A stretch of 64,000 nt of DNA from Opitutaceae bacterium (GTDB lineage Bacteria > Verrucomicrobiota > Verrucomicrobiia > Opitutales > Opitutaceae), in assembly GCA_028284385.1 (NCBI GenBank), contig JANQRT010000059.1, positions 124,001-188,000 on the forward strand, in the 5' to 3' direction. A program made the translations under genes and the position numbers. Below the pieces are notes generated by a model, which was not told the DNA's origin, made no database searches, and worked only from the letters and a program-made list of their open reading frames with translations. Positions within the stretch are counted from its first letter, which is position 1, and every line of letters begins with the position of its first letter. Shown in pieces: positions 2,147-62,851 of this stretch.

Positions 2147-5100
2147 ATGTCCTCAGTCGTCGAATCTCGCTTGTCCCTTTTTCACCCTGTTATCCAGGAA
2201 TGGTTTGCGGCTAAGTTTGGCGAGCCGACCGACATTCAGGAAAAGTCTTGGGAGCTGGTTGCGAATGGAGAGCATGCTTTAATTTCCGCTGCAACGGGAA
2301 GTGGCAAGACGCTGGCCGCGTTTTTGTGGGCAATCAACCAGCTAGCAGCCGAAGAGTGGGAGGCTGGCCAAACAAGAGTTGTCTACATCTCGCCTCTCAA
2401 GGCGCTCAATAACGACATTCGGCTAAACTTGCTCGAGCCCTTGGCGGAGTTGGAGGAGGTCTTTCGAAATAAAGGGTTGGATTGGCCTAACATTCGAGTC
2501 ATGACGCGTAGCGGAGACACGGATCAAAGCGATCGTCGCAAGATGCTCCGCAAGCCTCCAGAGATACTCATCACGACGCCGGAGAGCTTGAATCTCATGC
2601 TCACTTCTGGGGATGGTCAGCGCGCTCTGCTTGGAGTGAAGTCGCTGATTTTGGATGAAATTCACTCGGTGGTTGGGAGCAAGCGTGGGGTTTATCTGAT
2701 TACGGCGGTTGAGCGACTGGCTCATTTAAATGGCGAATTTCAGCGTATCGCGCTTTCCGCTACAGTAAGGCCGATGGAAACCGTCGCCAAGTTTATTGGA
2801 GGATTTGCTCAAGAAGACGATCGCTTTCGTCCACGCGACGTAAAGCTGGCCAGTTCGTCACAAATTAAAGAATACGCAATCGAAACGCGTTTCCCTGAAG
2901 AGGCTAAAGAGGATTTGTCCGAAGACGATTTCTGGCACCCCATCGTGTTGGAACTAAAGCGGATCGTAGCCGAAAACAATTCGACGCTCATTTTCGTAAA
3001 CAGTCGGCTCCTGTGCGAGAAAATCGCCCATAAGATCAATATAGACGAACCCGCTCCTATAGCGTATTCACATCATGGATCGCTTTCGAGAGAGATTCGC
3101 TTCGCCGTCGAGCAGCGCCTTAAGAACGGAGATCTCAAAGCGATTGTGGCCACCAATTCCCTGGAGATGGGAATCGATATTGGAGCGTTGGATCGGGTAA
3201 TTATGGTGCAATGCCCTGGTTTGGTGTCTTCGGCTGTCCAAAAGGTGGGTCGAGCTGGCCACCAGGTGGGAGCTGTAAGCCAGGCTACGCTTTTCCCGAC
3301 GCATGGTAGAGATTTTCTAGAGGCAGCTGTATTATCGAAGGCGATACAGGATCGCGATATTGAACCTGTGCGTCCCATTGAGTGTCCTCTGGATGTCTTG
3401 GCTCAGATTATTGTGTCCATGACAGGTTCGGGTAGTTGGGATATCGATGAGCTATTTTCAGTAATAAAATGTAGTTATCCCTATCGTGATCTTCAGCGAG
3501 AGCCTTTCGATCTGGTGCTAAACATGCTCGCTGGACGCTATGCGGCGAGTCGGCTTCGGGAACTAAAGCCGCGCATCTCGATTAATCGTAGTGAGAATTC
3601 AGTGACGATTCGAAAGGGTGCTCTACTTGCCTATTATTTTTCGGGTGGCGTCATTCCAGATCGAGGCTATTTTCACCTTCGTTTGGAAGGACCGGGATCG
3701 CGTATTGGAGAATTGGATGAAGAGTTCGTCTGGGAGCGGGTGATTGGCGACGTTTTCACTTTAGGAGTGCAGACCTGGCGGATCGAGCGCATCACCTACA
3801 ACGATGTCTTCGTGTCGCCCGGAGAAGGGAAGAGCCTCATGCCCCCTTTTTGGCGAGCGGAGGAGTTCAATCGGGATTTTCACTATTCCTCCCTCATTGG
3901 AAGTTTTCTGGAATGGGCCGATGATCTTGTCGAAGACAAGGACTTTGCTGAAACCCTGGAAAAGGAATACGCATTCGATCCTGTTACCTCCAATGCTTTA
4001 ATGGATCATCTGCGTAGGCAAAAACTGAGTACGAGACAGTCTTTGCCTCATAGACATCATATTCTCGCCGAGCTTATCGATGCCGCCCCCAGCGGAGCGC
4101 CTGGCCAGCAACTGGTGTTGCACACTCACTGGGGAGGGAGAGTGAATCGGCCTTTCGGGCTAGCTCTCGACGCGGCATGGGAAAAAAAGTTCAAGCATCG
4201 AACCGAAGTCTACGTAAACAATGACTGCGTTGCTGTTATGATTTCGGAAGATATCTCAGTCGATGAAGTCCTACGGCTTGTTCACAGCTCGAATGTGGAG
4301 GAAATGCTTCGTCTACGACTCGAGAACTCGGGATTCTTTGGGGCTCGCTTTCGGGAAGCTTCGGGTACGGCTCTTCTAATAACTCGCCAGCGAGCAGGGC
4401 AGAGATTGCCCCTATGGCTAAGCCGCATGCGATCGAAGAAACTGCTGGATTCCGTCCGCCGTTACGAGGACTTTCCCATTATGCTCGAGGCTTGGCGGAC
4501 GTGCTTGAAGGACGAGTTCGATATGGAATCCTTGAAACAGGTGCTGGCCGAATTGGAGCAAGGTTTGATTGAAATCTCGTTCGCCAAGACATCTGTCGCG
4601 AGCCCATTCGCTTCTTCCGTTGCTTGGCGTCAGATTAACGACGAGTACATGTATGACAGCGACAATCCTGCGGCTTCGGAAAACTCGAATTTGCGTGAGG
4701 ATCTGATTCGTTCAATAGCTTTTGATGATGCGGTGCGGCCTGCGATATCCGAAAAGATGATACGCGAATTTGAAGCTAAGCGGCAACGTCTTGCTCCAGG
4801 CTATGCTCCTTCAGATGAACTGGAATTGAAGGAATGGTTGAGAGATAGGATCGCCATTGAGAACGAGGAGTGGGAGCTGCTTTTGGAAAGGGTAGGGACG
4901 ACTGGCTCAGTCGGCCTGGATGATGAAGAAAAAGGCCGACTGAGCCAGTCGTCCTTACCAATCGTGAATAAACATGGCTTCGTCTATCTTGAGGAAGAAT
5001 CCAATCGTTTTGAATCTCTATTCTCGTCTGAGCCCGAGCCCGATCTTTTTATCGAATGGATCTCCTATTTTGGTCCTGTATCCATAGGGCGGATCTCTTC

Positions 5101-6541
5101 TCTATTTCCTCTGGGGGATGAAAATGCGAGCAGCTTGTTCGACGCTCTAGTCGACGAGCGTCGATTAGTTGTTGGGAAAATCGTGGAAGGTTCTGACGAG
5201 TCTTACATTTGCGATTACGAGAATTTCGAGACTTTGCTGCGTATGCAGCGGGCTAGGAATCGCCCAACCTTTGACCCTCTGCCTCTTCAACAATTGGGGC
5301 CGTTTTTGGCTGAACGCCAAGGTATTATAAAGCCGGAAAAGGGAGAGGATGGCGTTTATCAAGCATTGGAGTCGCTTTCTGGATACGTTGAGCGAGCGAC
5401 GCTATGGGAGGAGGAATTTCTTCCGGCTCGCGTACATCAATATCAACCTTCGTTGCTGGATAGTCGGATGGTTTCGGACCCTATCGATTGGGTTGGCAAT
5501 GGAGAGCGGCGCCTGACTTTCGGTTTTAGTGATGAACTCGATTTGGTTCGCTCGTCACTATCCGAAGATCAATTTTCATCTTCGGAAAGCGTCGTTTTGA
5601 ACGCAGTTACTTCCTCGCGAGGTGGACGTTTCGCTTTCCACGACCTCTTGAACGATTTGGAACTAGATGCCAGTGAGCTCGAAGAGGCTTTATGGTCGCT
5701 TGTTTGGAAAGGAATAATCAGCAATGATTCGTTTGCCGCAGTCCGGAAGGGGGCTGCCGCCGATTTTTCCATTGGCGATGCAACGAAAGCCCAAAACCGG
5801 AAAAGGGAGGCGATCGCTCCTGTCAGGGCAAGAATGGGTCGTCGCACGCGTATGCTTTCGGTTGCGAATACTATTATGTATCCAGGAAACTGGTATGCCC
5901 TGCCAGAGATTGAAAATGCAATCGATGAGATAGCGGATCTTGAAAAACAGAAAGAGAGAGTCCGCATCTTGTTCGATCGGTATGGCGTTTTATTTCGAGA
6001 GCTTCTTGCGAAAGAAACAAACGGCTTTCAATGGAAGGATGTATTCAAGGCTTTGCGGCTCATGGAATTGTCTGGCGAAGTTCTTTGCGGTTCTTTTTTC
6101 CAAGACATTTCTGGACTGCAATTTTGCTCGCAGGAAGCTTTCAGACGTTTGCGAAAAGGCTTTGAGCCTAATCCTGTCTACTGGATCAACGCTTGTGACC
6201 CTGCTTCCTTATGCGGAATTGGTCTTGATGCTCTCAAAGGAGCTTTGCCTAAACGGCTAGCGTCTACGCGAATCGTTTTTCGTGGTTGCGATTTGGTAGC
6301 AGAGGTTCATCGAAATGGAAAATCGCTTTTCTTTCATGTTCAGCCGGAAGACGAAGATATGTCGCAAATTCTTGAAGTTCTCCGAGATTTTTTTGTCCGA
6401 TCCTTCAATCCGTATAGCAGTATCACCCTTGAGCTAATCAACGATGAGGATGCTCGAAATAGTCTTTATCTGGATTCGATCAGCAGTCACTTCCGGCTGC
6501 ACAGCGACCACAAGCGTGTGGTGATTGAAGGGATTAGGTGA
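2147..6541 (+). CDS. lhr: Large ATP-dependent DNA helicase, Lhr family
   Basis: This 1464-residue protein matches the length and order of long Lhr helicases (E. coli about 1540). RecA1 carries Walker A ATGSGKT with Lys54, the Walker B box DEIH at about 170-173 and the ALSATV motif. RecA2 carries NSLEMGIDIGALD and the arginine-finger motif QKVGRAGHQ. The winged-helix and DEAD-associated regions follow, then a long C-terminal extension. Lhr is a 3'-5' superfamily 2 helicase tied to DNA repair. Residues about 915-938 are encoded by a near-perfect DNA palindrome (4891-4959) that looks like an in-frame insertion at a domain boundary. The 3' end overlaps the convergent downstream gene by 8 bases. 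No Shine-Dalgarno sequence precedes the ATG. Confidence 0.93.
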   Translation: MSSVVESRLSLFHPVIQEWFAAKFGEPTDIQEKSWELVANGEHALISAATGSGKTLAAFLWAINQLAAEEWEAGQTRVVYISPLKALNNDIRLNLLEPLAELEEVFRNKGLDWPNIRVMTRSGDTDQSDRRKMLRKPPEILITTPESLNLMLTSGDGQRALLGVKSLILDEIHSVVGSKRGVYLITAVERLAHLNGEFQRIALSATVRPMETVAKFIGGFAQEDDRFRPRDVKLASSSQIKEYAIETRFPEEAKEDLSEDDFWHPIVLELKRIVAENNSTLIFVNSRLLCEKIAHKINIDEPAPIAYSHHGSLSREIRFAVEQRLKNGDLKAIVATNSLEMGIDIGALDRVIMVQCPGLVSSAVQKVGRAGHQVGAVSQATLFPTHGRDFLEAAVLSKAIQDRDIEPVRPIECPLDVLAQIIVSMTGSGSWDIDELFSVIKCSYPYRDLQREPFDLVLNMLAGRYAASRLRELKPRISINRSENSVTIRKGALLAYYFSGGVIPDRGYFHLRLEGPGSRIGELDEEFVWERVIGDVFTLGVQTWRIERITYNDVFVSPGEGKSLMPPFWRAEEFNRDFHYSSLIGSFLEWADDLVEDKDFAETLEKEYAFDPVTSNALMDHLRRQKLSTRQSLPHRHHILAELIDAAPSGAPGQQLVLHTHWGGRVNRPFGLALDAAWEKKFKHRTEVYVNNDCVAVMISEDISVDEVLRLVHSSNVEEMLRLRLENSGFFGARFREASGTALLITRQRAGQRLPLWLSRMRSKKLLDSVRRYEDFPIMLEAWRTCLKDEFDMESLKQVLAELEQGLIEISFAKTSVASPFASSVAWRQINDEYMYDSDNPAASENSNLREDLIRSIAFDDAVRPAISEKMIREFEAKRQRLAPGYAPSDELELKEWLRDRIAIENEEWELLLERVGTTGSVGLDDEEKGRLSQSSLPIVNKHGFVYLEEESNRFESLFSSEPEPDLFIEWISYFGPVSIGRISSLFPLGDENASSLFDALVDERRLVVGKIVEGSDESYICDYENFETLLRMQRARNRPTFDPLPLQQLGPFLAERQGIIKPEKGEDGVYQALESLSGYVERATLWEEEFLPARVHQYQPSLLDSRMVSDPIDWVGNGERRLTFGFSDELDLVRSSLSEDQFSSSESVVLNAVTSSRGGRFAFHDLLNDLELDASELEEALWSLVWKGIISNDSFAAVRKGAAADFSIGDATKAQNRKREAIAPVRARMGRRTRMLSVANTIMYPGNWYALPEIENAIDEIADLEKQKERVRILFDRYGVLFRELLAKETNGFQWKDVFKALRLMELSGEVLCGSFFQDISGLQFCSQEAFRRLRKGFEPNPVYWINACDPASLCGIGLDALKGALPKRLASTRIVFRGCDLVAEVHRNGKSLFFHVQPEDEDMSQILEVLRDFFVRSFNPYSSITLELINDEDARNSLYLDSISSHFRLHSDHKRVVIEGIR
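4891..4959. repeat. Near-perfect palindrome inside the lhr reading frame
   Basis: Two 27-base arms (4891-4917 and 4933-4959) are inverted copies of each other with a single mismatch, separated by 15 bases. The arms begin GGTAGGGACGAC and end GTCGTCCTTACC. The element keeps the lhr frame open and encodes about 23 residues (VGTTGSVGLDDEEKGRLSQS region) low in hydrophobic content. Such long arms are not needed for coding and resemble mobile palindromic elements such as REP or rickettsial palindromic elements. I saw no second copy in the window by eye. Confidence 0.85.
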
Positions 6542-62813: not shown

Positions 62814-62851
62814 TGTCTAAATAATTGACAATATTAACAATTATTTAGACA
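62814..62851. promoter_or_regulatory. Palindromic operator between eda and the IclR gene
   Basis: Perfect 14-base arms (TGTCTAAATAATTG and CAATTATTTAGACA) are separated by 10 bases. The site sits one base before the eda ATG and 17 bases before the iclR-type gene ATG. It is AT-rich, symmetric and in the divergent gap, as expected for an IclR-family operator controlling both genes. TTGACA at 62825-62830 could be the -35 element for the regulator gene. Confidence 0.72.

Follow-up and report, generated by a model that had tools for sequence, protein, structure and literature searches.

GTAG-type REP elements are known to lie within genes. The available sections of Di Nocera et al. (2013; PMC3733652) describe head-to-head dimers of GTAG REPs that lie in frame, add 20 to 30 residues and are frequent in repair genes. 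They present Opitutus terrae (Verrucomicrobia) as the richest in intragenic GTAG repeats, with RNA helicases among its tagged genes, and report that two Xanthomonas species have different REPs at nearly the same position in recB. According to the same sections, CGTC is the terminal tag of RPE-type repeats, and repeats with this tag have no transposase dedicated to them. A REPIN is a mobile REP doublet whose two units, inverted relative to each other, can fold into a single hairpin (Within-Genome Evolution of REPINs, 2011; PMC3116915).

The locus described here shares with the GTAG dimers (PMC3733652) the GTAG tag, the short stem-loop, the inverted dimer arrangement and the in-frame peptide in a repair-type gene. 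It differs in that the O. terrae genes named in the available sections are RNA helicases rather than lhr or hrpB, and in that a same-site pattern was found here across 91 genomes, with empty sites. In-frame REP dimers in repair and helicase genes are already known from that work; it is their recurrence at one helicase loop that is new, as far as the searched literature shows, PMC3733652 being represented in it by part of its text. The inverted REP doublet is also common to REPIN/RAYT systems, but REPINs are described in extragenic space (PMC3116915). Rickettsial palindromic elements likewise are in-frame palindromes in protein genes, but their tag is CGTC rather than GTAG. The locus is a case in which the conversion of a mobile element into coding sequence can be counted cleanly, with empty sites and several independent insertions at one loop. 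The long-standing remark that intragenic REPs favor repair and helicase genes thereby becomes testable, the options being that chance together with tolerance, target choice or a benefit lies behind it.

The window, i.e., the whole stretch of 64 kb that was analyzed, has its strongest inverted repeat at 4891-4959, inside an open reading frame identified as lhr by matches to DEAD_assoc, WH_Lhr, WH3_Lhr and WH4_Lhr and by full-length homologues at 89, 61 and 57% identity. The features are as follows.

2147 to 6541, plus strand: lhr, coding for the Lhr helicase (1464 aa) and carrying the element in frame (open reading frame, domain matches, full-length homologues).
4891 to 4916, plus strand: REP unit 1, family A, GGTAGGGACGACTGGCTCAGTCGGCC (covariance model R1, 43.5 bits; covariation), with the GTAG tag at 4892-4895, a stem pairing 4896-4904 with 4908-4916, and the loop GCT at 4905-4907.
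4918 to 4932, no strand: 15-nt spacer between the arms (inverted-repeat scan).
4934 to 4959, minus strand: REP unit 2, family A, inverted, GGTAAGGACGACTGGCTCAGTCGGCC, with the tag GTAA (covariance model R1, 39.5 bits).
4892 to 4960, plus strand: Lhr codons 916-938 (VGTTGSVGLDDEEKGRLSQSSLP) contributed by the element, in a loop modeled with low confidence that joins a helix to a beta-hairpin.

The original prediction of two 27-base arms with one mismatch, 15 bases apart within a reading frame, was exact in position and geometry: the arms (4891-4917 and 4933-4959) are complementary at 26 of 27 positions, and the palindrome encodes residues V916-P938. Its further claim that random coding sequence does not produce such arms was borne out. 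The best palindrome in 200 synonymous-codon shuffles of lhr scored at most 12, against 23 for the real gene, and a scan of 90 Lhr loci (384 kb of open reading frame) yielded an internal palindrome of at least 15 only in this gene and in lhr of a congener; a chance origin is therefore excluded. A separate, AT-rich inverted repeat of 19 nt with zero spacer, possibly an operator, lies at 62814-62851 of the window.

By its sequence, the lhr palindrome consists of two REP units of the GTAG type joined head to head (REPIN/BIME). BLAST searches with the 69-mer revealed a family dispersed in this genome, with the unit GGTAGGGAYGACnnGCYnnGTCRTCC, in which an unpaired GGTA(G) head adjoins a 9-bp stem with the loop GCY; the head is GGTAG in lhr unit 1 and GGTAA in unit 2. 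Compensatory changes were found at four stem pairs among 20 units, with a covariation of 0.408 versus 0.121 in shuffles. A covariance model detected 37 family-A units at about 23 places in this genome, rather than the single occurrence that would have spoken against a mobile repeat, and four, weaker, in the congener G001. Most lie in inverted pairs about 60 to 70 nt long, of which the lhr copy is one, and its two units have private changes in common (GGCC end) and match each other better than most other pairs. The element thus combines an unpaired GTAG tag beside a short stem-loop and many dispersed, mostly intergenic copies, as in the GTAG REP superfamily, with two inverted units forming one hairpin, as in REPINs. 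Among the roughly 23 places, only lhr has its family-A copy clearly within a gene; no other site of family A or family C was clearly intragenic, a few lying in long frames near the frame's upstream end. Empty sites suggest that family-A pairs have moved.

The prediction that about 23 residues were added holds for the coding length of the element, not for the net gain: the linker is only 15 residues longer than in the uninserted Lhr of Pelagicoccus. As the element codes for 23, the insertion seems to have cost the linker a small number of its native residues. No palindrome was present at the insert position in the Lhr of Pelagicoccus (61% identity), G009 (61%) or G019 (57%), and residues at about 915-938 are missing in homologues outside the genus rather than being shared by them at the protein level. 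Linker length is highly variable among the aligned Lhr homologues. In the AlphaFold model the insert lies between a helix and a beta-hairpin, with a pLDDT of 58 to 64 over most of its length, and Foldseek hits were the C-terminal domain of mycobacterial Lhr and, at a weak level, winged-helix proteins of the MarR type; the insert loop may be part of a winged-helix domain. The extra peptide is likely to be neutral or almost neutral.

The only congener compared, G001, has an Lhr that is 89% identical, with an insert starting at the same codon. There the dimer consists of GTAGGAGTGGCTCTACGCCGCGAT, 11 nt, and the perfect inverse of GTAGGAGTGGCTCTACGCCGCGAT, and belongs to a different REP family (family C, consensus GTAGGAGCGGCTTTACGCCGCGAT), for which G001 gave 26 matches and this genome gave none. 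Around the insert, the two lhr genes have a nucleotide identity of 0.51-0.68, whereas most of the gene reaches about 0.8-0.95; replacement of the neighboring linker along with the insertion would be expected to have this effect. We compared 15 orthologous REP sites between the two genomes. A family-C REP was found at the counterpart of none of six G001 sites, and one of nine family-A sites of this genome had a family-A unit in common, two others having other repeats (C34:92095, where these are other REP families, and C11:40948); the rest of the 15 were empty or not comparable, most without a REP. At the G001 counterpart of one family-A site (L254), the same intergenic space holds two other inverted REP-like pairs. 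The different dimer of the congener most likely represents a second, independent insertion, although the common start codon in itself fits shared ancestry equally well. GTAG was considered as a target motif and rejected: it is present at the same codon of the uninserted Pelagicoccus site and at one intergenic empty site, and absent from the other clean empty sites.

That one loop can receive insertions independently and more than once is seen more directly in HrpB of the same bacterial family. Six relatives had 43 family-C sites, of which one, in HrpB of G015, was accepted as intragenic. It was the only one retained of eight sites spanned by a long frame; two others (L353 and L356) lacked a Pfam match, and the remaining ones were judged by inspection to be spurious or upstream of the start. 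The loop, which follows LLADLGA, has at most 9 residues in 42 of 91 genomes, 10 to 19 in 21 and at least 20 in 28. It contains a palindrome scoring at least 14 in 16 genomes, with a REP-dimer look in 14 of these; the others are an AT-rich tandem (G059) and an unclear case (G011). Many of the inserts (L364, L365, L366, L408 and others) are unrelated in-frame REP-type dimers, and at least about ten sequence types were distinguished by eye. Empty loops occur within the genera that have inserts; one genus (g15) has two different inserts and two empty loops. For the HrpB inserts of G004, G015 and G006, matching copies were found elsewhere in the respective genome, and no other copy of the G083 insert was found in 200 kb of that genome. 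In 37 full-length HrpB proteins this loop is the only internal site beyond the N-terminal 80 residues with insertions of at least 4 residues. Clear REP-type palindromes also occur at the matching loop of HrpA in G071, G044 and G004, and further ones near residues 640 and 850-885 of HrpA (L500, L521, L522).

As controls, 864 kb of this genome and G001, in which the window is not a random sample, contained lhr as the sole intragenic palindrome, and 400 kb of G004 and G083 contained 19 palindromes. These yielded four candidates spanned by a frame, in G083, all of which lacked a Pfam match and were not accepted as intragenic copies. Comparing 15 of 91 HrpB loops with four of about 350 genes gave p = 4e-8, with the gene number estimated from length and thresholds differing slightly between the scans.

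We favor, with a probability of about 0.8, the explanation that the lhr palindrome is a REP dimer inserted by a RAYT (REP-associated tyrosine transposase) and tolerated in frame, the dimer of the congener being a separate insertion. The RAYT would move the element as a single-stranded hairpin into lhr, where it would survive because the orientation and phase of its arms are free of stop codons, its length keeps the reading frame and the loop tolerates extra residues. Most likely, RAYT-mobilized REP dimers land widely and survive in genes only in disordered, length-tolerant loops. That the SF2 helicase loops of Lhr, HrpA and HrpB are preferred or selected landing sites, through RAYT target choice or a benefit from the hairpin in their own mRNA or loop, is doubtful. 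We also find it unlikely that these loops are a selected home in which the hairpin or peptide tunes the three helicases, e.g., as a structured substrate in their own mRNA. The contrast between 16 of 91 HrpB loops plus several HrpA genes and 400 kb of two relatives without a single confirmed intragenic palindrome would fit such a role, as would the prominence of repair genes among REP-tagged genes in the available sections of PMC3733652. Yet the inserts are diverse in both sequence and length, with signs of decay in many, the HrpB loop is short and has no insert in 42 of 91 genomes, and tolerance alone explains the use of the only internal, insertion-taking site of HrpB away from its N terminus.

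A single ancestral dimer in the genus, later replaced in place by the dominant REP family of each species, is rather unlikely. It would account for the common start codon and phase of the two lhr palindromes, and for both being rare intragenic copies of their families; against it, exchange of family A for family C occurred at 0 of 15 orthologous sites, the linker DNA flanking the insert cannot be aligned, and HrpB shows the empty state in the same genus as two different inserts. The original prediction had left the choice between a rickettsial palindromic element and a REP/RAYT repeat. The latter part stood, with the dispersed family, the GTAG tag, the covarying 9-bp stem, the absence of the residues outside the genus and REP-flanked RAYT-like genes in related genera all pointing to it. 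An element of the rickettsial type would also be an in-frame palindrome adding a peptide, but would need the tag CGTC where GTAG was found in a family resembling RAYT-associated REPs, which makes this origin extremely improbable. Hardly tenable, too, is the view that the palindrome arose by chance in a native, conserved region of Lhr; the dispersed copies, the absence in relatives, the scan of Lhr genes and the synonymous shuffles all speak against it.

The search for a mobilizer, also proposed in the original prediction, gave candidates flanked by REPs of the matching types in related genera only. A RAYT gene flanked by family-A-type REPs was found in G005 (NF047646, 95 bits, cutoff 80), and RAYT-like genes flanked by family-C REPs in G040 (one at 66 bits, below that cutoff, with PF01797 above its own). 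No RAYT flanked by family-A REPs was detected in this genome, whose PF01797 proteins of 335 to 353 aa (L025, L026, L028) had no clear nearby REP among the short motifs searched. Because the RAYT-like genes of this genome go with other REP families, we only infer that a RAYT moved the lhr element. One of them (L024/L277, C72:129511) is flanked by another REP family, GGAGGTTGGACTTTAGTCCGACC, and the REPs GTAGCGGCCAGCGTCCTCGCTGGCC flank a short gene (L266, C11:57510) that is RAYT-like, with a match at the margin of the Pfam cutoff.
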